From a virus, in IMG/VR virus record IMGVR_UViG_3300027770_000074, positions 1 to 52,492 of that record: a stretch of DNA of 52,492 nt; one strand, 5' to 3'. Positions 2,513 to 24,175 of this stretch are shown here, piece by piece; the first letter of the stretch is position 1; every line of letters starts with the position of its first letter. A program made the translations under genes and the position numbers. The notes under the pieces were generated by a model. The model did not search any database and was not told the origin of the DNA. It saw only the letters and a list, made by a program, of their open reading frames with translations.

Positions 2513-3103
2513 ATGGCACTACTCATTGACACATTATCATCAAATAAGAACGTATTCAATCCTTCCGAAGGACTTGATTCCTCTCAATATGGAATATGGG
2601 ATTTGACAAAATCCTCCGTTTCTTTCCAGGGTGTAGATCCTCAATTAGCAAGCTTTGCCATAGTCCCTGAATATTTTCAGATGAGACCCGATCTTATAGC
2701 TACCCTCAAAATGGGAAGTCAAGGCAAGATGGGGAGTCTTCTAAAATTTAATGGGTTGAGTAATCCTTTTGCCGTTTACGAGGGACAAATATTGGCTGTA
2801 CCTACAGCTAATACTGTTGATGAGATCTTTAGATCCAAGAAGGTCAAAGAGCAAAGCGCATCAACATCAAACACAAATACTAACCCACTTAATTCTTTCA
2901 AGAAGAATCAGCAACAAAAAAAATTCCAGGTTAGCCCAGGAAGGAAGAAATTCCTCGATGAGAAAATCAAAAATAAACCCGTTGAAGTCCTTCCTCCCAA
3001 CATTACACAGCCGGGAGAAACAACAATTCTAAAACAGAATGGATTTATTGTATTTGCACCAAACTCCGGAGGCGGAGGATTTAATACACCAACTGCAATT
3101 TAA
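2513..3103 (+). CDS. baseplate wedge protein, gp53-like with LysM-like segment
   Basis: A 196-residue protein, the same length as T4 gp53. Residues roughly 46-98 read as a LysM-like fold: PEYFQMRPDLIATLKMG, then LLKFNGLSNPFAVYEGQILAVP, the usual LysM ending of 'N-x-I/L-x-NP-F-x-GxxLxIP'. Many gp53-type wedge proteins carry such a segment. The rest (residues 105-165) is a Lys/Asn/Gln-rich, probably disordered linker, and the C-terminus is Pro/Gly-rich with GGGGFNTP. In T4, gp53 joins wedges during baseplate assembly. The position between a tube-like protein and the hub gene supports a baseplate role. A general LysM-containing tail protein is the alternative. Confidence 0.55.
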   Translation: MALLIDTLSSNKNVFNPSEGLDSSQYGIWDLTKSSVSFQGVDPQLASFAIVPEYFQMRPDLIATLKMGSQGKMGSLLKFNGLSNPFAVYEGQILAVPTANTVDEIFRSKKVKEQSASTSNTNTNPLNSFKKNQQQKKFQVSPGRKKFLDEKIKNKPVEVLPPNITQPGETTILKQNGFIVFAPNSGGGGFNTPTAI

Positions 3104-4706: not shown

Positions 4707-7103
4707 ATGGCAGCTACTGATCAATTAAGGAGTCTGTTTCTCAAGGGGTTTAAATTATCTAAGCAGGGAAACTATGAAGATCCAACATATCTTGGATTTA
4801 AGATTGTTTTGGATTTTGGTACCCTCCCCATTGGTACTGAAGACGGACTTCCTCCTAGTCCTTTGCTTAAACAGGGAAACTATTTAGCTGACACAGGGTT
4901 CAACACCTTGGTTAGTAGAAATCCGTTCGGACAGCCTCAATATGATTACAAAACGAATGGGGAGAACGGTGCTATCGCTTTCTATTCTGCACCTGGATAT
5001 TTAGCAGAGAGGGAAAGCGAATTTCCTATAGGGGGAAAGAGATCTGATATGCTGATACAATTTCAGAATAATTTAAGTGATCTTCTAAACAACTATCCGT
5101 GGTTTTTACAGTCTATATCAGGGCTTGATGCATTATACAAAGTTGCAAGAAGCGGATTTCCTGATTCTCCGGAAAGCACTTTTAATGCTCAGAGAACAGC
5201 TGGGAAAACATTAGATTTCACAACTCTTGAAGCTCTAAATTTAAGAATGTCTGCCTTAGCAACATTATACAATCAGGCCACATTCGATTTTGATAACATG
5301 CGGGAGCTACTCCCAAGAAATTTGAGGAGATTTAAAATGTTTATCTTCGTATCCGAGATTAGAAATTTTTTCAAAACATCAAGACTTGTTGGATCCTCTG
5401 CTGCTCTCTCTACGATAACTAATTATGCTTCATTGCTAGGGAATGGAAATAATCCTGGCTCAAATTTAGGAACAAGCACTATCAATCAGGAATACCCAGC
5501 GGAAGGATCAAATACAAATCCTGCAAGTGCTTTTAATTCTTTTGTTGGAAACATTGTAAACAACTCTGGTCTAACCGATGAATTATCTCTTTTTCAAAAT
5601 CAGCAGGACCAAACTGGAATTAAACCAGTAATAGTTTTCGAATGCAGCAATTGTGAATTTGATTTTTCAGACAGCTCCCCGTTAGGTGCAACAATTAGTC
5701 AGGGTTCAGATTCCCCTGTGGCATCAACCAATAAATTTAAAATACATGTTGGTAGGGTCAGGATGAAGTCACAATTCCCGAATATTAGACAAGATGGAAA
5801 ACCTCTGGTTCTTGCTGATAGCTGGGATGGTGCAAGATCATCGGTTCAAAAAAATCCAAGGAATGCTGAGGACATCTTATCTATTGGCTCTGAGATGCTA
5901 ACCAATTTCATAAGCAATTCATTGAATGATCTGATTAATGAAGGTGTAGCTAATTTAAGTAATAATATTTCAGGGATAGATCAAGCATTGCTAGGAAATA
6001 TTTATAGTTTCAATCCAGGGGAAATCCAAGCACAGCTATCTTTTAACAACGCTCAGAATTTTTTAAACGGTCTAGGAAATGTGAATATTGGGGTTCAAAA
6101 TACTACATTACCAAATCCACAAAACGCAGGTCTTGGAGGTCCACCTCAAAGAGTATATCCAAAACCTTCAGGAGATGTTTATGTTGAAGTTCCTGGGAGG
6201 GATCTTGGTGTTCCTGATAGGGTTTATCCGCCAGTCTCTGGGGATCTATTTCCAAATTCCCCTGGAAGTGATTTAGGTGTTCCCGATAGGATTTACCCTC
6301 CGGCAGACGGTGACGTTTACGGAACAGTACCTGGACCAGATCTTGGAGTTCCTGACAGGGTTTATCCGGAGCCAGATGGTGATGTCTATGCAGATGTCCC
6401 AGGTAGTGATCTTGGGGTTCCTGATAGAATTTATCCAGAGCCAAATGGGGATGTTTATCCAGACGTTCCTGGCTCGGCATTGGGTGTACCTGATAGAATA
6501 TATCCTTCCCCACAAGGTGATGTTTATCCAGATGTTCCTGGAAGGGATTTGGGTGTACCTACAAGGGTTTACCCTGGAATAAATGATGATGTTTATCTCG
6601 ATGTTCCTGGCGGTGATCTTGGTGTTCCTCAAAGAGCTTATCCTGGAATATCTGATGATGTTTATAAGAACGTTCCTGGCCCAGATCTAGGGGTTCCACA
6701 AAGAAGATATCAAGAACCTGCTGGTAAGGTTTATCCTGAGGAAGTCCCTGTGGATTATTCTGATAAATTAGGGGATTCTAAAGTGTATCCGCAGGAAGTT
6801 TTCTCCCCAGAGATTACTTCCATAGAAAGTGGAAGCATTTATCCCGCTTCTCAAAAGCTTAACATAAATGGGGAATTAAGAGACCCTTCTAATTCTTTTT
6901 TGCAGACACCTAGCCCAGTTTATCCACCTTCCCAAGTATCTTCAGCTAGCACTAAGCAAAGAGGCGATATTGGAAAAGTTTATCCGCCAACAAGTGGAGA
7001 CTTTACACTGGAAACACCTATAAATCTAGGAAACGCTAAGCCTGCAAGTAAGTTTAATGTAAGTACAGGCGAATTTAATAGAAATGAATCTGAATTCTCA
7101 TAA
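4707..7103 (+). CDS. baseplate or tail-tube-associated protein with eight 23-residue tandem repeats
   Basis: A 798-residue protein in three parts. Residues 1-460 are globular and contain LPRNLRRFKMFIFVSEIRNF and VIVFECSNCEFDFSDSSPLG, which resemble tube-fold strands of tail proteins. Residues 482-665 are eight tandem 23-residue units of the form R-[VI]-YP-x-x-x-GDVY-x-x-VPG-x-DLGVP-[DQT]. Residues 666-798 hold decayed copies, each with a [KS]-V/I-YP core (for example GKVYPEE, SKVYPQE, GKVYPPTSGDF). The repeat region is Pro/Gly/Asp-rich and probably extended. The stop overlaps the spike ATG (TAATG), implying translational coupling and a shared job at the baseplate centre. I do not recognise the family. 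The repeats could be a spacer or multiple binding sites for a partner. Confidence 0.5.
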   Translation: MAATDQLRSLFLKGFKLSKQGNYEDPTYLGFKIVLDFGTLPIGTEDGLPPSPLLKQGNYLADTGFNTLVSRNPFGQPQYDYKTNGENGAIAFYSAPGYLAERESEFPIGGKRSDMLIQFQNNLSDLLNNYPWFLQSISGLDALYKVARSGFPDSPESTFNAQRTAGKTLDFTTLEALNLRMSALATLYNQATFDFDNMRELLPRNLRRFKMFIFVSEIRNFFKTSRLVGSSAALSTITNYASLLGNGNNPGSNLGTSTINQEYPAEGSNTNPASAFNSFVGNIVNNSGLTDELSLFQNQQDQTGIKPVIVFECSNCEFDFSDSSPLGATISQGSDSPVASTNKFKIHVGRVRMKSQFPNIRQDGKPLVLADSWDGARSSVQKNPRNAEDILSIGSEMLTNFISNSLNDLINEGVANLSNNISGIDQALLGNIYSFNPGEIQAQLSFNNAQNFLNGLGNVNIGVQNTTLPNPQNAGLGGPPQRVYPKPSGDVYVEVPGRDLGVPDRVYPPVSGDLFPNSPGSDLGVPDRIYPPADGDVYGTVPGPDLGVPDRVYPEPDGDVYADVPGSDLGVPDRIYPEPNGDVYPDVPGSALGVPDRIYPSPQGDVYPDVPGRDLGVPTRVYPGINDDVYLDVPGGDLGVPQRAYPGISDDVYKNVPGPDLGVPQRRYQEPAGKVYPEEVPVDYSDKLGDSKVYPQEVFSPEITSIESGSIYPASQKLNINGELRDPSNSFLQTPSPVYPPSQVSSASTKQRGDIGKVYPPTSGDFTLETPINLGNAKPASKFNVSTGEFNRNESEFS
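6150..6701 (+). repeat. eight in-frame 69-bp tandem repeats (23 amino acids each)
   Basis: Units begin at 6150, 6219, 6288, 6357, 6426, 6495, 6564 and 6633, each 69 bp and each starting with the Arg of R-V/I-YP. The protein units stay in perfect 23-residue register while the DNA has drifted at third positions, so selection acts on the protein. Units 1-6 share P-x-x-GD; units 7 and 8 share GI-x-DDVY, which points to a recent duplication of that pair. Degenerate VYP-containing copies continue to about 7010. Confidence 0.9.
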
Positions 7104-7812: not shown

Positions 7813-9396
7813 ATGCCTGCAGACTGGTCTTCTTTTATTAGTAATGTTTCAGACAAGCTTTCTTCTCAGTCTTTGAAAAGTAACCAGGAAACTGCTAACT
7901 ATATAACTGATCAATATGTTTCTTCAACTGTTGGAAAAGCACAGAGCCCTTTTGGAAACACCCATCAGAGTGGACAAAAGACAATCATGTCTATTGCACT
8001 TAAGAAAGGTATGGACGAGCTTGCTAAAAACCCATCTCCAACTTTTAAGCAGCGAGAGGAGGATCCGGCATTCTCTGATTTAACAGGAGGAATACCATCG
8101 GGTCCCAGTGGGGGATATGAAGTAATTAACGAGTACATAAAATGGGCTAAAGAGAATCCAACGCTTGCTCCTGCTTTTAAATTTACTGCACTTTTCGAGG
8201 ATCCTTCTGTATACCCCTCTAGTTTAGATAAGGCAATACCTTTACTTGCACAGAAAGTTCTTTCCCAATATGACGGAACTGAAGAATTTAATCAGTGGGT
8301 AGGAACACTCCCGATCGTACTTGGAGATTTGGGAAAAAGAATATATGACCAGTATATAAATATCATAACAAACAATAGAAGTTTAAACGTTGGCGTTGAA
8401 GTTACTGCAAATGTTGTGTATAGAAATGAAAATTATAACTATGCTGAGGTAAAAGCATTATCTGATAATATCATATACGATAACATTACCTCCGGAAGAA
8501 TTAGTAGTAGGGGAAGTAGCTCAGTCGAAGTTAGAGGGAAAATATCGAAAATAACTGTTGATAAACTAACAGGAAGACCTAAATACTTTGTTGCATATCA
8601 GAAAGATTTTTCCTCCAGGGGGATTATAACAGTTAACAAAGAAGTGTATACCGATACAATAAACGTGATTGTAGAAAGCGACTCCGTGAGATCGAGAGCA
8701 CTTTCTTTAAAATCAAATTTAAAATATACAAACAAGGTTTTTCAAGTTTCTTCAGAATATGATACAAATAATATACCACTTTGGGTTAACGAGAATTTGA
8801 TAGTAAAACTTAACTATTTAAAGCCTATAGATAAAGGATATTTAGATCAAATATATGATTTTATAGATCCACAGAGAAGCAAATTAATAAACATCCGAAA
8901 TTCTATAAACTCTAAAAAGAGTCTCTATGGGAATTCACAAAGTGGTGAGGTTAAAAAATGGTTTGATGCTTTAATTACCTGGGGTAATTCTTTGGCAGAT
9001 GAGGCCAAAAAACTCAATAATACCCAACAGGGTGATCAAAATGATCCCTATGAGATAATGGCAAAGGGTGTTATTGGGTACTGGATTTCAACACTGGTCC
9101 AGCCCTTAAGTGCATCACCTCCGGTTCCCCCTTGTAGCATTCCTACTCCTGGTGTGTATATTGGCTTGTTTTACGGTAATCAAAAATTTCTTGCTGATAA
9201 TTTAAGAAGAGCTTTTAATACTGGTAAAACTTTCAAAATCCCAGGATTAGAAAAAACAGCTGCACAGGCAGTTTCTAATGCTCTTGCTATATCCTTTGCC
9301 TTACATTTAGCTGAATTAAAGTTCCTCTATAATGGACAAATCACAACCCCTGGTGGACCAGTTCCTATGATAGGCTTTATTCCACTTGTTTATTAA
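7813..9396 (+). CDS. unrecognised large protein, probably virion-associated
   Basis: A 527-residue protein starting two bases after the spike gene. The N-terminal 100 residues are polar and Ser/Gln-rich. Residues about 195-300 look beta-rich (VGVEVTANVVYRNENYNY, VEVRGKISKITVDKLTGRPKYF). The C-terminus is distinct: PVPPCSIPTPGVYIGLFYGN, an Ala-rich helix (TAAQAVSNALAISFALHLAELKFLY), then ITTPGGPVPMIGFIPLVY. The Gly/Pro-rich final stretch is hydrophobic but too short to be clearly a membrane anchor. I recognise no family. Its place after the spike and before the operon terminator suggests a spike-associated or baseplate-plug role. This is inference only. Confidence 0.5.
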   Translation: MPADWSSFISNVSDKLSSQSLKSNQETANYITDQYVSSTVGKAQSPFGNTHQSGQKTIMSIALKKGMDELAKNPSPTFKQREEDPAFSDLTGGIPSGPSGGYEVINEYIKWAKENPTLAPAFKFTALFEDPSVYPSSLDKAIPLLAQKVLSQYDGTEEFNQWVGTLPIVLGDLGKRIYDQYINIITNNRSLNVGVEVTANVVYRNENYNYAEVKALSDNIIYDNITSGRISSRGSSSVEVRGKISKITVDKLTGRPKYFVAYQKDFSSRGIITVNKEVYTDTINVIVESDSVRSRALSLKSNLKYTNKVFQVSSEYDTNNIPLWVNENLIVKLNYLKPIDKGYLDQIYDFIDPQRSKLINIRNSINSKKSLYGNSQSGEVKKWFDALITWGNSLADEAKKLNNTQQGDQNDPYEIMAKGVIGYWISTLVQPLSASPPVPPCSIPTPGVYIGLFYGNQKFLADNLRRAFNTGKTFKIPGLEKTAAQAVSNALAISFALHLAELKFLYNGQITTPGGPVPMIGFIPLVY

Positions 9397-14028: not shown

Positions 14029-15756
14029 ATGAATATTTACCGGAAGAATAACATCCTAATAAATGGATTACTGAACGACACCTTTGTATTTTTACAAGAT
14101 ACGTATAATCAGACTGTTAATCTTTTTACAGTAGCTTCAGCTTGGGGACAGGTCTTGTTCGTATTGCAGAATCTTTCACAGATGATTCTTTACTTTATAG
14201 AGGATTCTATAACTGAACTTAATATAGAGCAAGCATCCAGAGATTATTCTGTTCGAAGTCTTGCTAGAATATCAGGGTACAATCCTGCAAGGTCTATGGC
14301 TGCTCAGGGAGAAGTCCAAATAGGGTGGAATAGAACAAACTCCGATGCCGGAGGAGGAGCGATAGTTTTATCTAATTACACACAAATAAAAAACCAGAAC
14401 AACGGTAAAAATTATTCATTAATACTATCCTCTCAAAAAATAACAATACCACTTACCGGCGGATCTAGTCCGATAAGAGTGAAGATAGCGGAGGGTGCTT
14501 TTCAAACACAGGTAGTAACCGGAACAGGTCAGTTACTTCAAAGTTTTAATTTACCAAGTCAGTCCGGATCATATATTGATCAATTCTATGTTGATGTTTA
14601 TGTGAATGAAGAGAGATGGAAAAGATACGAGTCTCTTTATGATATCCCTCTCAACGGAAAGGGATATCTAGTTAGAAGTGGAATTCAGGAGGGACTTGAC
14701 ATTTACTTTGGCAATTCTTTCTTTGGCGCGATTCCGCCAAGAGGATCAAGAATAAGAATTCAATATCTTCAAAATACTGGCGCTGCTGGAAACACAAAGG
14801 ATAACAAGCAAAGTCCTCTTAGTTATAGATGGGCAGATCCAGGAACAGATCTTTTTGGAGCGGAGGTTGATTTAAATGATTATATCCTTATAACGTCTAC
14901 GCTTAATCCAATGTTTGGTACTAATCCAGATTCTATTAATCTCATAAGATTGGTTGCACCTAAAACTAGTAGATCTTTCGTTTTTGCAAATGCACAGAAC
15001 TATGAGATATTTTTGGATAAGTTGCAAATATTTTCTCAGATCCAGGCTTTTTCGACCTTTGATGACGAGTACCTAGACGATGATAATATTGTCTACCTAT
15101 ATTTAATTCCGGATATCACTTTAAATATTTCTTCCAATGAGGATTATTTTAGCATACCATTAAATCAATTCCTGTTAACCTCTGATCAAAAAGCAATGAT
15201 TCTTAATTTGCTAGAGCAATCAGGATCTATGATTGCAACAACTGTGGTTAAGATAGTAGAGCCAGTAATTAGTAGATACACCGGTAATGTGATTATGACG
15301 ATCTTTGCTGGATTTGATCCGGAAACTATAAAAAGGGAGATTAGGAAAAGAATTTCAGAATACATGCTTAATGTGAAAAGACGAGACACCATACCAAAAT
15401 CTGACATAATTGCTATTATAGAAGGAATAGACGGTGTCGACTCAGTGAATTTCTTTTTTGTTGGTCAAAAAAATGAAGCTAACCAAACAATCATGCAGAA
15501 TATGACCAACGTTTCCACAGTTCAGCAGGATCAGCTTTTGGGACTAAACGAGTTCGGAGATATCGTAATAGGTAGAAACGAGCTTGTGGTACTTAGAGGT
15601 GGATGGTCCGATAGGAACGGAACTCTTTTCACTGAAAGTATAGTTGAGGGAAAACCTGGGCCACTTAATATTAGTATTTCTGCTATCGTTCAGCCTAACT
15701 TTAGAGCGGAGCTTAATGCTGAGCTTAAGGCCGCAATTCTTAAATCACAAGATTAA
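14029..15756 (+). CDS. 6: baseplate wedge protein, gp6 / J-like
   Basis: A 575-residue protein, near T4 gp6 (660). The N-terminus is helical and contains the hallmark YSVRSLARISGYNPARSMAA (residues 73-92), which is typical of gp6-type wedge proteins. Middle domains are beta-rich. Residues about 410-480 hold the conserved tail core: VVKIVEPVISRYTGNVIMTI, a helix with IKREIRKRISEYM, then IIAIIEGIDGVDSVNFFFV, matching the J-like 'IxxIxGVDxVN' motif. In T4, gp6 dimers form the inner ring of the baseplate. It starts seven bases after gp25 and ends two bases before the next gene. Confidence 0.8.
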   Translation: MNIYRKNNILINGLLNDTFVFLQDTYNQTVNLFTVASAWGQVLFVLQNLSQMILYFIEDSITELNIEQASRDYSVRSLARISGYNPARSMAAQGEVQIGWNRTNSDAGGGAIVLSNYTQIKNQNNGKNYSLILSSQKITIPLTGGSSPIRVKIAEGAFQTQVVTGTGQLLQSFNLPSQSGSYIDQFYVDVYVNEERWKRYESLYDIPLNGKGYLVRSGIQEGLDIYFGNSFFGAIPPRGSRIRIQYLQNTGAAGNTKDNKQSPLSYRWADPGTDLFGAEVDLNDYILITSTLNPMFGTNPDSINLIRLVAPKTSRSFVFANAQNYEIFLDKLQIFSQIQAFSTFDDEYLDDDNIVYLYLIPDITLNISSNEDYFSIPLNQFLLTSDQKAMILNLLEQSGSMIATTVVKIVEPVISRYTGNVIMTIFAGFDPETIKREIRKRISEYMLNVKRRDTIPKSDIIAIIEGIDGVDSVNFFFVGQKNEANQTIMQNMTNVSTVQQDQLLGLNEFGDIVIGRNELVVLRGGWSDRNGTLFTESIVEGKPGPLNISISAIVQPNFRAELNAELKAAILKSQD

Positions 15757-16309: not shown

Positions 16310-19300
16310 ATGTCAAATTTTTTTTATAGAAGATTAAATTTTTTCAATAAAAGGGGTAATCCCCTAAATTTTGATTATATCGGACCTACCGGTGCGACTG
16401 AGCTTGAATCTACATTCATATATTTGAGCAACTCCAGCGTAACATCTATAGGTGATATAAATGTAAATTCTTTCGACCTTGAACCTGCTACCCTCACACT
16501 TTACTTTGAGGACTTAAACGGATTCACGATTATTGATTGGGCAAACGAGGTTCAAACATTTTTACAACAAGGTGCAGAGGTTTTTCTCAATGGCCGTGTA
16601 GCAGGACAACAGCAATTCAAGGGAAAGATATTTTCAATTACCCCCTCCGGATCTACATATATCATACAGTTCTTCCCCGGAAAGTCTGAGGGGCAAAGAA
16701 TTATAAGTAACGGTAATAAAATTTATTTTAATACAACCTATAATTTTAGACCTGGTGGGTATTATAAGGGTAACATTTATTTTGATCCTGTCTCAAGTGG
16801 ACTCTATGAGAATGAGCAGATATTCATAGTTCAAGAATTCTATGATCAAAACACATCTTCTTTCAACTATGGACTTCCACACACAGGAATAACTGGAGCT
16901 ACTGCAGGAAAATGGAGAACCAGATGGTACAACAACAAATACGGTGAAACTGATGTCTCTGAGATAATTTTCACATACCAAATATATGATGATATTAGTG
17001 GTGGTGATGGACAGCCTCTTATAATAAGCTATCCCAATATTGTTTATAGCGTTGATGTTGATGCAAATGACACCTACTATGGTGCAAGCGGAGGGTATAT
17101 TCAAACATCATCTGTTTCATCTGAGACATTGTCTATTAGTGTAGCATTGAATTGCGGTGATCTTAATGGTAATATTTACGAGAGAAAGTTGATTGTTGAA
17201 GATATAACCGGAGGGACAGGATCTGCACCAATAAAGGTTATAGAAGTTGATTTTTACGGGGAAATAGTTGGTGAGGATCCTAGATTTGATGTGATGCTCA
17301 AGAATATAGGTAGAGCATTTTACCCGTCGGATTCTGTAATACTGAGAGATCACGATCCTGCCGAGCCTTCCCCTAACTATCTAGAGATCAACGATAAAAG
17401 AAAAGAGCTTTTAGTTGCAGGTGAAGAGATCTTCCCTTATGCTGGAGCTTATCGTGGTCTAATTGCAGCTATTAAGTTTTTTGGATATCAAGATCTAAGA
17501 ATAAAAGAGTATTGGCTTAATCTAGAATATCGCAGGTTACAGGTCGAATCCCCTCTCCAGAAGAATAAGCAATTCCTTGATGAAATAAAAGCTCAGCAAT
17601 CCATCAACGGATACACCCAATCTATTCAGATTGCTGATGTACTGGATAATCCAAATAGCGGTAAATATAGACTTACGCAAACATACGGGCCAGATAAAGA
17701 GGGTAATTATGTTCTGGATATTTCTTCTGAGGAGTCTTTAGTTCCTTCTAGAACATATAAAAAAACTTCTCTGTTTGGTCTTTATTATGATTTAAATAAA
17801 GATAATGGTGATGTTGATGAATACGGATATCCTGTTGTTATTGATGCTTTTAAATTTACCCAGGAGGAGGTTTTACTAAAACTATTTGCACTTAAGGAGA
17901 GATTAAAAAGGGATTACCTCCCATTAAATGCAAGGATTGTTGATATAACCGGGGAGGGCATTTATTTCGAGGTTTATAATACACGTGCATGGACTGATGT
18001 GATGCAGAGACCCCAGATTGAAACCGGGATTCATTTTGATATCGTACCAAATCCCGATTTTGGATTCATCGAGGATTTAAGAAATTTCTCAATCCGTCCT
18101 TCACAAACATCTATACAAACACCGGAATCGTATTTTAATTCTTTTTCTTCTAATGTAACCGTCCAGGGTGGAACTGGCTCTGGCGTTTATTTCACATTAA
18201 CCGGAGCTACTGGTCCGAATCCAAGTCTTTCTGTTACCTCTGGCTATTCTTATACTTTTACCATAGGTACAACTGGATTTACTTTTTATATCACTACAGA
18301 TTCAACTCTATCCACTGTAATTTCACCGGTGGGTCTGGAGAATAACGGGGCAACTGCTGGAGGGGATCCTTTACAGTGGTATGTGAATCCAATACAGACT
18401 ACCCCAGTTTACTACTTTATAGCTGAGAACACCTCTTTAAACGGGATCGTAAATGTAAGTCCGTCTACATTATCTGATTTTGGAAACATTATCAACCCCC
18501 TTGATTTTGCCCAGAACTATTCGGTTTCCCAAAATGATTCACTCTTAACTGCAATTAATCAATTTTATGATTTAAAACAACAAGGTGAGATCGTTGAGCT
18601 TGGTGATGGAAAATACGACCCTCCAGCTTTAATTGATCCTGACACCGGGCTTTTCTATAGAACCCCTATAGGGATGCCAGTTGTTTTAGAGATGCTAGTT
18701 GACAGATGGACATGGGATGAATTCAATATCAACTGGTCCTCTGTGAATATTCCAGCCTTTAAGACTGGCGACAGGGTTCAGATTAAAAAAATAGATGCCT
18801 CCATATCTTTAGGTATAAGCGGTGGACAAATTTCCTCTGCTACTATTAACGGGTCAGGTCTAGGGTACGCAACAACACCAACACTCATTATTACAGGTGG
18901 TGGTGGAGCTGGTGGAGCTGTTTCGGCAACGGTAACCGGAACAAGGATAACCTCTATTTCAATATTATCTGTTGGGTCTGGCTACACTTTCACCCCTAAC
19001 TTATCAATCCCATCCCCTAGTGGAGATTTCGGTACTGTTACTGCAGTAAGTTATTCTACAGGGGTTTACACCGTTTTATTAGACAGTGGATCGACTTCAA
19101 CATTTGATTCTACTGAACTGTTTGCCACATCTCAGGATTACAGTTTGCTGAACTGGAAAAATATAGATTTTTCAAATCTTGTTGACATAGAATGGACGGT
19201 AACAAAATCAGCAACACAGCCAGGAAGTCCCTATAATTTCGTATTTAGAGGCTCAATAGTGGACTTTTATAAGTTAGCCCACTTTGTACCATTCACCGGG

Positions 19301-21352
19301 GAATATGACGTTAAATGCGGCGTGTATGATGGCTTTAATGTTCAGAGTTTATCCATATTGCCTAGAGCTATAACTGTTGCACCTAAAATAATAGAGATAG
19401 ATTCATGGACACGCTATCGTGAGGTTGAAGATTATTTATGGAGGACGACAACAAGAAGCTGGGAGGTTTATCAATCAATCTGGGAATACCCAGCTGAGGG
19501 AGAAACTATGGGGGAACTGCAGAAGACAATTCCTGCTGAGATTTTAGATTTTGCTACCTATGGAAATAAGTCTCAAGAGGGACAAGATGTTTATGTAAAA
19601 GTAGAATCAGCAGCTGCTGGTGCAACTGGGTACATCTCATTTACCCAGAACAATTATCAAATTACAGATATCTCTTCTTTTGAAATTATATCAGGCGGAC
19701 AATATGGATTTGCAACAATTACAACATCAGTCGCTCATAATTTAGAGACTGGTTATGAGGTTAGAATATTTGGATCTATAGATCAAATTAACGGTAGATG
19801 GAATGTGATAGTTCCAAGCGGATCTACAACTACATTCAAAATTCCTCTTGTTTTACAAAACACCTGGAACGGAATACTTTTCCAATCATCTCCAAACAAA
19901 CTCTACGTTGACACCTCAACAATTAGTGGATACCCTAACATGTATTTTACAGGTTCTGGGGTTATAAGTGTCTCTGTTGACGGAAGGGAGATAGGATCAG
20001 CAGATGCTGGTGATTCTTTATATAGAACTGCTAATGCAATAGTCTCTGCTATTAACTCGTATATTACATATCCAGATTACTTTGCTTCCTGTGTTGATCC
20101 TTCGCAAGATCCAGTAACTGTTTTGATATCAGCGCCAAGTGATCTTGGTGCAACTCAAAATGGAGTTCCTATTAGTTTTACTCTTACAGGATCACTTTCC
20201 GAAACCCCTTCATCCCCCAATCTTGACTTTGGTGTTAATCCAGAGGACAGCTTTGTTTTCTGGAGTGAATCTCAGACAGATCTGCCAAATGCAAATCTAA
20301 AATACTGGGGAAGTAAAAGACTTACGTGGGAAATTTTTACAAACAACACATGGGAGGATGCTTACGCCCATGGATGGTATGATTTTGAGTATAACAATGA
20401 TTGGCTTGGCGGGTATGAGCTACATAATATACAACCTGGTGATTATATCAAATTAAGCACAGGAAACGAATCATTCCCGTTCCCAATAGGAGCAACAATT
20501 CAGCCTGGGGTTTCGCCACTTACTGTTCAAAATGTTGCAGATCAATTAAATGCCTCAGATGATCGGTATATTACTGATTTCTATTACAGACCCATCCCTA
20601 ATGAATCTGGGGATCTGCCTATGGATTCACCTCCAATAAATCTGGTTGTGTCCAATTTTGCAGTGCCTGTTCCTTCTCTGCCAGCGCCAGTTTCTTTGCT
20701 TGGCGGATCTTCGTTGTTGATACCGATAATTGGTGTTAGTGGGCCGAGTTTAACAACAACAACCACTACAACATCAACTTCGACAACATCAACTTCGACC
20801 TCGACATCGACAACCTCGACCTCGTCGACTTCGACTTCGACCTCGTCGACTTCGACTTCTTCGACTTCGACCTCAACCTCGTCGACCTCAACCTCGTCGA
20901 CTTCAACTTCGTCGACTTCAACTTCGACCTCGTCTACATCGACATCGACATCCACGTCTACATCTACGTCGACCTCAACGACAACTGAGTTTATAGTTTT
21001 CGGGGAGCTTGTGATAGACAATCAGGTAGGATTTGGTCCAATTATTACTAACTTGTCTCAATATACAACTTATACCACTGGTTTCTCATTCCCTGTAAAC
21101 TCTGGTAGCTCGGAAACAGGGACATTAACTGCATCAGGTCCACCTGCCCCTTGGAGAATTACATATACCCCAGGATCTGCAGGAACTTTTAATTTTGAAG
21201 TATTTAAGGCAGCAACATTAGGAGGAGCATGGATTTCCCAGGGAAGTGCAACAGATAATGCACCTAGCGGTGCCTCAAGAAATGTTAATCTAAGTGGTTT
21301 GGTTAGCTGGGTTACTGGAAATAGTATCATGATAGTACTCACCCAGCCCTAG
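16310..21352 (+). CDS. giant baseplate wedge protein, probably gp7-like, with a 78-residue Ser/Thr tract
   Basis: A 1680-residue protein in the gp7 position after gp25 and gp6 (T4 gp7 is about 1030 residues). Residues about 330-415 contain FYPSDSVILRDHDPAEPSPN and GAYRGLIAAIKFFGYQDLRI, patterned like the tail-protein-I-like part of large wedge proteins. Residues about 610-700 are beta-rich and fibre-like. Residues about 828-907 repeat 'GSGLGYxxxPTLIITGGGG' and 'VGSGYTFTPNLSI', a small repeated strand-turn unit. Residues 1482-1559 are only Ser and Thr. The last 120 residues (EFIVFGELVIDN...) form a separate small beta domain. The tract likely acts as a stiff or glycosylated stalk displaying that domain outward. 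A glycosyltransferase gene follows directly. The gp7 name is inferred from order and the N-terminal part. Confidence 0.55.
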   Translation: MSNFFYRRLNFFNKRGNPLNFDYIGPTGATELESTFIYLSNSSVTSIGDINVNSFDLEPATLTLYFEDLNGFTIIDWANEVQTFLQQGAEVFLNGRVAGQQQFKGKIFSITPSGSTYIIQFFPGKSEGQRIISNGNKIYFNTTYNFRPGGYYKGNIYFDPVSSGLYENEQIFIVQEFYDQNTSSFNYGLPHTGITGATAGKWRTRWYNNKYGETDVSEIIFTYQIYDDISGGDGQPLIISYPNIVYSVDVDANDTYYGASGGYIQTSSVSSETLSISVALNCGDLNGNIYERKLIVEDITGGTGSAPIKVIEVDFYGEIVGEDPRFDVMLKNIGRAFYPSDSVILRDHDPAEPSPNYLEINDKRKELLVAGEEIFPYAGAYRGLIAAIKFFGYQDLRIKEYWLNLEYRRLQVESPLQKNKQFLDEIKAQQSINGYTQSIQIADVLDNPNSGKYRLTQTYGPDKEGNYVLDISSEESLVPSRTYKKTSLFGLYYDLNKDNGDVDEYGYPVVIDAFKFTQEEVLLKLFALKERLKRDYLPLNARIVDITGEGIYFEVYNTRAWTDVMQRPQIETGIHFDIVPNPDFGFIEDLRNFSIRPSQTSIQTPESYFNSFSSNVTVQGGTGSGVYFTLTGATGPNPSLSVTSGYSYTFTIGTTGFTFYITTDSTLSTVISPVGLENNGATAGGDPLQWYVNPIQTTPVYYFIAENTSLNGIVNVSPSTLSDFGNIINPLDFAQNYSVSQNDSLLTAINQFYDLKQQGEIVELGDGKYDPPALIDPDTGLFYRTPIGMPVVLEMLVDRWTWDEFNINWSSVNIPAFKTGDRVQIKKIDASISLGISGGQISSATINGSGLGYATTPTLIITGGGGAGGAVSATVTGTRITSISILSVGSGYTFTPNLSIPSPSGDFGTVTAVSYSTGVYTVLLDSGSTSTFDSTELFATSQDYSLLNWKNIDFSNLVDIEWTVTKSATQPGSPYNFVFRGSIVDFYKLAHFVPFTGEYDVKCGVYDGFNVQSLSILPRAITVAPKIIEIDSWTRYREVEDYLWRTTTRSWEVYQSIWEYPAEGETMGELQKTIPAEILDFATYGNKSQEGQDVYVKVESAAAGATGYISFTQNNYQITDISSFEIISGGQYGFATITTSVAHNLETGYEVRIFGSIDQINGRWNVIVPSGSTTTFKIPLVLQNTWNGILFQSSPNKLYVDTSTISGYPNMYFTGSGVISVSVDGREIGSADAGDSLYRTANAIVSAINSYITYPDYFASCVDPSQDPVTVLISAPSDLGATQNGVPISFTLTGSLSETPSSPNLDFGVNPEDSFVFWSESQTDLPNANLKYWGSKRLTWEIFTNNTWEDAYAHGWYDFEYNNDWLGGYELHNIQPGDYIKLSTGNESFPFPIGATIQPGVSPLTVQNVADQLNASDDRYITDFYYRPIPNESGDLPMDSPPINLVVSNFAVPVPSLPAPVSLLGGSSLLIPIIGVSGPSLTTTTTTTSTSTTSTSTSTSTTSTSSTSTSTSSTSTSSTSTSTSSTSTSSTSTSSTSTSTSSTSTSTSTSTSTSTSTTTEFIVFGELVIDNQVGFGPIITNLSQYTTYTTGFSFPVNSGSSETGTLTASGPPAPWRITYTPGSAGTFNFEVFKAATLGGAWISQGSATDNAPSGASRNVNLSGLVSWVTGNSIMIVLTQP
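20753..20986 (+). repeat. low-complexity Ser/Thr-coding tract (78 codons)
   Basis: Every codon from 20753 to 20986 is Ser or Thr, mostly alternating ST, STS and SST units. The DNA is built from short TCGAC- and TCAAC-type units with several GTCGAC sites. It uses TCG and ACC/ACT far more than the flanking AT-rich coding sequence, which suggests growth by slippage or unequal exchange. It stays in frame throughout. Confidence 0.95.
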
Positions 21353-21374
21353 TAATTTTCTTTAAATTTTTTTT

Positions 21375-22340
21375 ATGAAAAGAATTATTTTCATTAGCGT
21401 ACAACCGGATGATTTTTATTTTTATTGGCAGGTTGAGGTTTTTATACACAACGCAATAAAGAACGGGATAAACCCAAAAAATATCCAGATACTTTTTTCT
21501 TGCGTCAAAGGACCTAAACAGGAGCTAATTGATCTCTCTAAAAAATATAATTTTGTAAAATTTTATTTCTATGAGAGAAATGAGTTTATTAACTACGGAT
21601 ACGTTTCAGCTTTAAGACCTGATGCTTTGGAGCAGCATTTTTCTAAGTATCCAGAACTGAGGGGCGAAGTTCTTTTTTATCATGATTCTGATATAATTTT
21701 CAAAGAACTACCCGACTTTGATTCTATGCACGATGATAACTTTTGGTATTTGAGCGACACAGTTTCCTATATAGGTGCAAACTATATTAAATCTAAATCT
21801 GATCAGCTGCTAACAGATTTATGTGATATTACTGGTGTTAAGAGGGAAATTGTTGAAAGTAATGAGAATAATTCTGGGGGAGCTCAGTATTTAATGAAGG
21901 GTGTTAATGCTTCTTATTGGTCTGATGTGAAAGAAACCTGTTTAAATCTTTATAAATACATGGCTGAGAGGGAGGAAGAAGAAAGAAAGACACTGACTCC
22001 AGAGCAGCTTGAAACATATAATCCAATACAAAAATGGTGCTCTGATATGTGGGCAGTTTTATGGTGTGCCTGGAAAAGAGGTTACCAAACAAAGATATCA
22101 AGAGAGCTTGGCTTCAGCTGGGGATCTAGCGATCACAAAGAATGGGATTGTCATAAGATTATGCACAATGCAGGGGTTCTTGAAAAAGATAAAGATCGTA
22201 AATTTTTCAAGGGTGAATTTATAAACAAATCACCATTTGATCGCGACCTAAGCTATGTCGAGCCTTATTCGAACAGCTGGCACTATGCCCAAGCAATAGA
22301 GTATGCAAAAATTCAGAGGAAAGAAATTTTCGGGTCATAG
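21375..22340 (+). CDS. GT-A-type glycosyltransferase, possibly acting on Ser/Thr-rich virion protein
   Basis: A 321-residue cytosolic protein with no signal peptide. The N-terminal 110 residues are Rossmann-like (MKRIIFISVQPDDFYFYWQV, NIQILFSC) and end in FYHDSDIIF, where D104-x-D106 fits the metal/nucleotide-sugar-binding DxD motif of GT-A enzymes. Further conserved-looking blocks are NNSGGAQYLMKGV, IQKWCSDMWAVLWCAWKRGY, ELGFSWGSS and HNAGV near residue 270. This layout resembles Ser/hydroxyproline-O-glycosyltransferase-like proteins and related phage enzymes, but the exact family was not checked. The gene sits 22 bases after the Ser/Thr-tract gene and 29 before a fibre gene. The natural substrate guess is the virion itself; host surface glycan or DNA-base modification remain possible. 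Confidence 0.65.
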   Translation: MKRIIFISVQPDDFYFYWQVEVFIHNAIKNGINPKNIQILFSCVKGPKQELIDLSKKYNFVKFYFYERNEFINYGYVSALRPDALEQHFSKYPELRGEVLFYHDSDIIFKELPDFDSMHDDNFWYLSDTVSYIGANYIKSKSDQLLTDLCDITGVKREIVESNENNSGGAQYLMKGVNASYWSDVKETCLNLYKYMAEREEEERKTLTPEQLETYNPIQKWCSDMWAVLWCAWKRGYQTKISRELGFSWGSSDHKEWDCHKIMHNAGVLEKDKDRKFFKGEFINKSPFDRDLSYVEPYSNSWHYAQAIEYAKIQRKEIFGS

Positions 22341-22369: not shown

Positions 22370-24175
22370 ATGGCAAATCAAGTTGTTATCAACCAGGGTG
22401 ATTATGTTTATTTTTATGACCTTTCAATAGGTTCGGTTATCTCTAGGGACTGGTTATTCCCTGGAGGAACTCCAACAGGGGGAACTGGTTTTGCCCAGGC
22501 GGTTCAGTATACTGGGGTAAATTCTTCAGGTTATTCTGTAAGCTTAACCATATTTGATTCATCAACTTCAAAATCTATTACAGAGCCTAATATAGTATCA
22601 GTTTCACCACAGAATTTTTTTGTATCTCTTCAAATAACAGATGGAACAAATCCCATTTCATCTACTGATATGTCTAGAAATGTTGTGTTCACCGCAACAG
22701 GTCCAACAGGTACCGGCATTTCACAGTACACGTGGAGCATTCCAGGCACAGCAGGATTCACTGGCACTAGCAACACTTATTCAATCTCCCTTATAGATTG
22801 GAGCAATTTAACGGGATCTAACCTTGGAGCTGTCTATACACCCTATGTGACAACCCCAACGGTTATAGCCACGACAGTTTTGGGGCAATCTGCCAATTCA
22901 TATCAAACATTAACTTACAATAAATCTGGCTATGAGGAGGAATTAAATTTGTGTGATTATCCCGGATCAACTGGATCGCACTACACCCCATATATTACTA
23001 ACACTTTAGTAGAAGACCCATCAAATACATCAGGCTTCTCTATTGGCGCAACGAGTTATTACCTGACTTCAGCTTTTGGGTTTACTGGAAATGGACTCTT
23101 TGTTCAGACTGATCAAAGTACTCCTGTTTTTAATAATGCATATTTTCATGCACAAGGTGAGGCAATGACGCTACTTTCTCCAAGCTGGGACGTTAGTTCT
23201 GGAAGTGTTCCCGGACAGGTAGTGGCGTCATATTCAGCCTATAATTCGATGGGTCTGTCTCCTGCGGCGGCCGTGAGCTCACTCCCCCGATACACCATTG
23301 GTAATTACATGTATCCTGGCGACATATCTGTGGTTCAGGGAGATTTCTTTTATTTCGCTGATACCTCAAATGTTTTAAAGACGCTGGGAGTTGCTACCTC
23401 AAATCCTCCTGTATCGTCTTCTAGATACTGGTCAGCAGAATCAATCGGAGATTATCTAAACGACATATCATTTGGATCTATTTCATCTAGAAGTTTCGAA
23501 AAAAATGTATCGTCTTCAACATCAACTTGGCTTCCTGGATATAGAGATTCTACTGGTGATCTATCAGAATTTCCTAACTCTGTAGCTTATGGAGGTCCTT
23601 GCATACCGTTTGATGTTGATATAGCACCTTTAAACTGGACAGTTAGCTTCTATACTTCTAATACGAGAAGCTTAGATGATTTAACTCTTAGAGGTCCTTA
23701 TGATATTGAACTCTACGGGGTCTCAGATACCGGAAATTCTCCATCAGGAAAAATGTTTGTTGCTGGTGATAATGTTCATGGACAGGGTATAGCTTCTGTT
23801 ATAGAGAATTGGATTTCATCGAACAATCTCTCCCCTTATATAGGTGTAACAGCAGATCAAAAATATTGTACTTTTGAAAGGGCATATGAGGTTATAGGTG
23901 GTCAGTATCCAGATCCCTCTGAATTTAATGGCTTAAGTATTTTTATTAAAGAGGATTATATTAGTAATTCTTACCCATATCCTATAGGGATAACGGGCAA
24001 TACCTTTCTTCTCAAAATGGTTTTTTCTGGGAACGTTCAGAACACACACGTCTCTCCGAACACAAACTATTCGATTGCTTCATGGTTAGGATTTTCACAG
24101 GATTATATTTCAAATCCATATCAAGAGCAAAACGATCCAGATCAGCCAAAGAGAGGATGGCAATTTAATGGTTAA
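22370..24175 (+). CDS. virion protein with PKD-like beta domains
   Basis: A 601-residue Gly/Ser/Thr/Tyr-rich protein. Residues about 10-70 (GDYVYFYDLSIGSVISRDWL, PGGTP, YSVSLTIFDSS) fit a PKD/Ig-like domain, with 'GDxVxFxDxS' and a closing VSLTIFD strand. A second related segment covers about 85-150 (FFVSLQITDGTNPIS, YTWSIPG, YSISL). The rest is beta-rich and fibre-like. The C-terminal 130 residues (ENWISSNNLSPYIGV to the end) may be a separate globular domain. PKD-like domains often serve as decorations or sugar-binding adhesins on phage surfaces. It starts the block of large exterior proteins after the glycosyltransferase and pairs with the 1370-residue gene 15 bases downstream. Confidence 0.5.
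   Translation: MANQVVINQGDYVYFYDLSIGSVISRDWLFPGGTPTGGTGFAQAVQYTGVNSSGYSVSLTIFDSSTSKSITEPNIVSVSPQNFFVSLQITDGTNPISSTDMSRNVVFTATGPTGTGISQYTWSIPGTAGFTGTSNTYSISLIDWSNLTGSNLGAVYTPYVTTPTVIATTVLGQSANSYQTLTYNKSGYEEELNLCDYPGSTGSHYTPYITNTLVEDPSNTSGFSIGATSYYLTSAFGFTGNGLFVQTDQSTPVFNNAYFHAQGEAMTLLSPSWDVSSGSVPGQVVASYSAYNSMGLSPAAAVSSLPRYTIGNYMYPGDISVVQGDFFYFADTSNVLKTLGVATSNPPVSSSRYWSAESIGDYLNDISFGSISSRSFEKNVSSSTSTWLPGYRDSTGDLSEFPNSVAYGGPCIPFDVDIAPLNWTVSFYTSNTRSLDDLTLRGPYDIELYGVSDTGNSPSGKMFVAGDNVHGQGIASVIENWISSNNLSPYIGVTADQKYCTFERAYEVIGGQYPDPSEFNGLSIFIKEDYISNSYPYPIGITGNTFLLKMVFSGNVQNTHVSPNTNYSIASWLGFSQDYISNPYQEQNDPDQPKRGWQFNG

Follow-up and report, generated by a model that had tools for sequence, protein, structure and literature searches.

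The window, i.e., the whole 52,492-base IMG/VR record that was analyzed, is probably a piece of a larger genome. It contains an ORF (16310–21352) whose 1680-aa product carries Ser or Thr at all 78 positions from residue 1482 to residue 1559, exactly and without interruption as the original prediction had read it, followed by a 121-residue end domain, a gene encoding a putative glycosyltransferase, and a gene encoding a 601-aa protein (Table 1). The tract lies in frame, with no frameshift needed, and no Ser/Thr run longer than seven residues was found in any other ORF of the window. A gp6-like gene matching phrog_219 is located two genes upstream of the tract-bearing ORF, and a baseplate hub/lysozyme-type gene, tail fibre-like genes and a tail tube-like gene are also encoded. 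Judging by these matches, the tract carrier is a putative baseplate- or tail-region protein; its earlier designation as a "gp7-like giant" has moderate support from the match to phrog_28177, a weak match to phrog_438 and the gp6-like neighbor. An imperfect tandem repeat with a 69-bp unit was also observed at 6201–6704, within ORF 4707–7103.

Table 1. Features of the tract–enzyme locus in the window and frameshift-like sites in other phages (positions in the window unless a locus is named).
Feature	Position	Strand	Evidence
gp6-like baseplate wedge subunit (tail/baseplate operon context)	14029..15756	+	phrog_219, E = 7.1e-32
gp7-like baseplate/tail protein, 1680 aa, tract carrier	16310..21352	+	phrog_28177, 2e-20; phrog_438 baseplate wedge, 8e-6; core relatives in IMG/VR
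Pure Ser/Thr tract, 78 residues, proposed O-glycan acceptor	20753..20986	+	translation; missing in every testable enzyme-negative relative
Beta-rich C-terminal domain past the tract, 121 residues	20987..21349	+	single-sequence AF2, phmmer, fold search
Putative GT-A-fold glycosyltransferase, phrog_4417, 321 aa	21375..22340	+	phrog_4417, 3.3e-64; AF2 pLDDT 96.6; Foldseek PDB, 186 matches at E ≤ 0.001
D104-S-D106, proposed metal/nucleotide-sugar site	21684..21692	+	D104 and D106 invariant in 68 homologues
H264-N-A-G267, GT8-like HxxG that may supply a third metal ligand	22164..22175	+	H264, A266 and G267 invariant in 68 homologues
601-aa protein, right edge of the tract, domain and enzyme cassette	22370..24175	+	in relatives lacking the enzyme, homologue lies directly 3' of a tail protein with no tract
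Frameshift-like sites (SA2, RQ1, 9183)	L333 2701-2707, L006 7660-7666, L329 2764-2785

The end domain was modeled from its single sequence with AlphaFold2 (AF2) as a fold of nine strands (pLDDT 72.8). A phmmer search over the fetched loci matched only the domain itself, and no fold match in PDB was obtained at E ≤ 0.001 (the best value was 0.01); with neither a relative nor a fold match at hand, the proposal that this domain binds host glycans is not supported.

The gene directly following the tract-bearing ORF is a full-length member of phrog_4417 (residues 6–311 aligned to positions 3–291 of the 293-position profile), a family carried in PHROG as being of unknown function, whose members include the lactococcal "prophage pi2 protein 34". 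No counterpart of the gene product or of the family was found in Pfam or NCBIfam, no sequence match placed it in the GT8 family, and a profile search of the sequences of solved structures (PDB) returned only a spurious TAL-effector match. A resemblance to Ser/hydroxyproline glycosyltransferases had also been proposed, and no significant match to such enzymes was obtained among the Pfam, NCBIfam or PDB results listed, fold matches included, the presence of those families in the libraries being unchecked. The AlphaFold2 model built with 68 homologues (pTM 0.93) was compared with PDB using Foldseek, and the top matches were GT-A enzymes; WbbM, UGGT, Skp1 galactosyltransferase, a GT8 enzyme, XXYLT1, LARGE1 and glycogenin were matched, and the protein-modifying enzymes UGGT, Skp1 galactosyltransferase, glycogenin and LARGE1 were among the top matches (E about 1e-7 to 1e-4). 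The predicted fold is thus that of a GT-A enzyme, in agreement with the original prediction; the kinship to known enzymes is at the level of the fold, and sugar transfer is inferred. The TM-scores were modest (0.4–0.5), so neither the donor nor the stereochemistry can be inferred. The GT-A-type D-x-D motif recognized earlier is present as the invariant D104-S-D106 and is expected to be the metal/nucleotide-sugar site. H264 may serve as a metal ligand, a role that is inferred, and K279 is invariant in the 68 homologues as well. The GT8 family motif is HxxGxxKPW; it is not complete in the enzyme, where HNAG is present, KPW is absent and K279 lies further on. Compared with GT8/GT24-type enzymes (UGGT, glycogenin, XXYLT1, LARGE1), the enzyme of the window therefore shares the GT-A fold, the DxD and a later HxxG-type motif, whereas it differs in the lack of a sequence-family match, in the modest TM-scores and in having no contiguous KPW.

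The joint occurrence of the tract and the enzyme was assessed in relatives of the tail protein whose gene was complete at the 3' end and was followed by 2.5 kb or more of sequence, 75 in all when the window is counted. Both elements were present in 16 relatives and both were absent from 59, with no discordant case (Fisher p = 1.2e-16, without correction for the kinship of the sequences); relatives carrying only the enzyme or only the tract, which would have refuted the original prediction, did not occur in this sample. On the tree built on the core tail protein without the tract, the tract/enzyme label required five changes, at least four of them being forced by strongly supported branches, and the tract and the enzyme switched jointly at every change. 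Since there were merely 4–5 such co-switch pairs, the tree test alone cannot attain significance (sign test p = 0.125). In five relatives (L014, L016, L017, L018 and L020), the tail protein stops about where the tract of the window starts and is immediately followed by a homologue of ORF 22370–24175; because this homologue adjoins a tail protein without a tract where the enzyme is missing, it delimits the exchanged segment on the right. The enzyme was not found anywhere in the records of 12 tract-less relatives, which may be incomplete. Given the joint gain and loss and the position at which the tract-less tail proteins end, the tract, the end domain and the enzyme behave as one cassette. It should be noted that an extra tract-bearing gene separates the tail protein from the glycosyltransferase in L010 (14851–15846) and, downstream of the tail protein, in L270–L274; one enzyme may serve two carriers in these loci.

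Loci were also gathered by the enzyme alone, namely, 74 phage records matched by tblastn (only a sample of these was read), 80 viral contigs and 33 prokaryote contigs. As a single-protein query, the enzyme matched none of the viral contigs, whereas its alignment gave 308 matches. In 63 of the 72 dereplicated loci (88%), the nearest upstream gene on the same strand contained a Thr-rich Ser/Thr run, and such a run occurred no more than two genes upstream in 66; at positions +1 to +4 relative to the enzyme, a Ser/Thr tract was found in 0–5%. The signals at positions −5/−6 and +5 are compatible with a further tract, carried by whichever of the two major proteins (head or tail) does not adjoin the enzyme; phages VPE25 and 9183 show this arrangement. 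In the record-wide pattern search for Ser/Thr runs, acidic tracts on the antisense strand acted as a confounder. When the exceptions were read by eye, L007 had TTVAPTTVKP repeats, L100 had a Thr/Pro tract, the tract of L092 lay in the next gene, and that of L112 was in another reading frame; in L130, L112 and L134, the tract does exist, and its apparent absence was an artefact of ORF picking or of the threshold. Two exceptions without an adjacent tract remained after hand reading, L036 (with its near relatives L070 and L071) and L107. In the L036/L070/L071 clade (near 8001), the enzyme is directly 3' of an unrelated gene of roughly 427 aa, and the L070 record holds a Thr tract far from the enzyme.

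The 61 tract proteins adjoining the enzyme comprised 17 major tail proteins of phrog_88, other major tail and tail-tube families, three major head protein families and baseplate-like proteins; the glycosyltransferase is thus linked to virion structural genes, as expected for virion glycosylation of the mycobacteriophage type. In most Bacillota phages, the tract forms the extreme C-terminus of a major tail or capsid protein, and the large phages akin to the window have it inside the protein, often more than once, before or between variable domains. The tract beside the enzyme recurs among phages of Bacillota and Bacteroidota on proteins that are not related to each other, and the combination of unrelated carriers with a single enzyme family argues that the tract is the substrate. 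As phrog_4417, in a large number of mutually unrelated phages, is almost always found beside a Ser/Thr tract of a virion protein, these phages, as far as can be judged from sequence alone, probably coat part of the particle with sugar.

Consequently, it is considered highly likely that the enzyme encoded by 21375–22340 is dedicated to the preceding virion protein and O-glycosylates its tract, giving a mucin-like stalk. The tract, the fold family of the enzyme, the conserved putative active-site residues, the tight adjacency and the correlated gain and loss are observed; no biochemical or mass-spectrometric data exist, and the originally predicted action of the enzyme on the tract is supported by co-occurrence and near-universal adjacency, glycosylation itself not being demonstrated. 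The enzyme would act in the cytoplasm, drawing on a host nucleotide sugar, and would modify many or all Ser and Thr residues of the tract before or during assembly; catalysis, the identity of the acceptor and the sugar are all inferred. The density of glycans would stiffen and protect the tract, so that a stiff, hydrophilic stalk ending in the small beta-rich domain would stand on the baseplate-region protein, with an effect that is likewise inferred (shielding, protease resistance, or adhesion to surfaces or mucus). The predicted display of a terminal domain applies in the window and is not general among carriers; since the tract is C-terminal in most Bacillota carriers, decoration or shielding is the role that suits the carriers more generally. 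A different purpose for the same enzyme and acceptor is that the glycosylated tract and the end domain constitute a receptor-binding or adhesion element (an accessory adhesin) and not a shield. Variable domains follow the tract in the window and in several relatives, and in lactococcal 936 phages a tail-protein extension made by recoding bears a carbohydrate-binding domain (PMC4759559), whereas nothing follows the tract in most Bacillota phages; this purpose is possible, though rather unlikely.

When viral contigs were scanned independently for runs of ten Thr codons, the enzyme was present in eight loci, in each as the next gene, and most tract genes had no phrog_4417 neighbor. The supposition that all phage Thr tracts come with phrog_4417 was rejected on this count, and the tract alone does not imply the enzyme; tracts without phrog_4417 may be plain linkers or may be served by other enzymes. 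Such tracts, as well as the phage glycosyltransferases that target DNA or the host surface (PMC12619734), are consistent with the tract of the window being a mere flexible or extended linker beside an enzyme that acts elsewhere (on phage DNA, a host wall polymer or another virion protein) and whose position is incidental. This is improbable in view of the lack of discordance among the 75 tail-protein relatives, the adjacency of the enzyme to tracts on unrelated carriers, and the repeated joint gain and loss. Among the Pfam families listed for genes flanking the tracts without phrog_4417, PF11397 was the single glycosyltransferase; this GlcNAc-type enzyme was observed near one Thr-tract locus (alignment A3, flanks of L139–L218), a hint that Thr tracts may also be matched with enzymes of other families.

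All four Thr codons and all four Ser codons are present in the tract of the window, with A or T invariably at the first position, C invariably at the second, and a mixed third position (G28/A21/T17/C12). The imperfect DNA repeats of 15–51 bp inside the tract match each other at only about 65–86%, and a plain DNA microsatellite was ruled out by the mixed codon usage and these poorly matching repeats. Together, these features indicate that the composition of the tract is held at the protein level, which points to selection acting on the protein. A functionless expansion of simple-repeat DNA, with the enzyme as a passenger of a hypervariable locus, could draw on the imperfect repeats and on the difference in the tract between the near-identical relatives L010 and L011, yet it is scarcely credible, as the translated tract is 100% Ser/Thr although all eight codons occur, and the tract and the enzyme recur together on unrelated proteins of Bacillota and Bacteroidota phages.

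Glycosylation of the tract by phrog_4417, if extended to all carriers, would describe a portable "virion mucin" system, in which a dedicated GT-A family glycosylates contiguous Thr/Ser placed on any handy virion protein (major tail, major capsid or baseplate), is recruited repeatedly by Bacillota and Bacteroidota phages, and in some of them has its dose set by ribosomal frameshifting into the tract; this wider interpretation is only slightly favored. A comparable case is that of the mycobacteriophages Che8, Corndog and Myrna, in which the capsid and tail-tube subunits are modified at their C-termini by a phage-encoded glycosyltransferase and the glycosylation shields virions from antibodies (Freeman et al. 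2023, as cited in PMC12619734 and PMC12363180). Both systems link a phage glycosyltransferase to virion structural proteins, whereas the present one differs in its hosts, in the near-homopolymeric Thr/Ser tract as the apparent acceptor, and in the enzyme gene directly adjoining the carrier gene. No mycobacteriophage was among the 74 tblastn records of the enzyme, and no direct comparison was made with the Che8 gp110 and Corndog gp38 enzymes. In the literature searched, with most subscription journals outside reach, neither a function of phrog_4417 nor a pairing of a Thr tract with a glycosyltransferase was described; the originally asserted novelty thus holds for the pairing within that literature, and not for virion glycosylation by phage enzymes, which is already known.

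These data provide a testable function and a likely substrate, from the letters of the genomes alone, for a widespread phage family now listed as unknown. Relatives of phrog_4417 occur in lab-tractable Lactococcus, Lactobacillus and Enterococcus phages, which opens virion glycosylation beyond the mycobacteriophages to direct testing. If the interpretation is true, many tailed phages would be coated with mucin-like sugars that bear on their stability, adsorption, adhesion to mucus and recognition by antibodies, and the enzyme and tract would constitute a simple tag for protein O-glycosylation.

Optional C-terminal extensions of the major capsid or tail protein produced by frameshifting have been reported for Listeria phages PSA, A118 and A500 and, as TpeX, for lactococcal 936 phages (PMC5009743, PMC4759559). 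A CCC-stop shift site was also found in the relatives SA2 and RQ1; the extension of the 936 phages is predicted to bind carbohydrate (PMC4759559), whereas here it is a Thr tract beside the enzyme. The major tail protein of Staphylococcus phages SA2 and RQ1 stops at CCC TAA, beyond which a long Thr tract is encoded in the +1 frame. In Enterococcus phage 9183, the major capsid protein stops just past C CCA AAA, and a Thr tract, located before the glycosyltransferase, is encoded in the −1 frame. In these three phages, programmed frameshifting looks like the means by which the tract would be added to a fraction of the subunits. The capsid gene of VPE25 (L331 2720–2740) and a Listeria fleischmannii prophage gene (L112 about 3060–3075) share a similar CAAAGTAAC context at their ends, with a Thr tract in the −1 frame in both, possibly representing a shared shift site.
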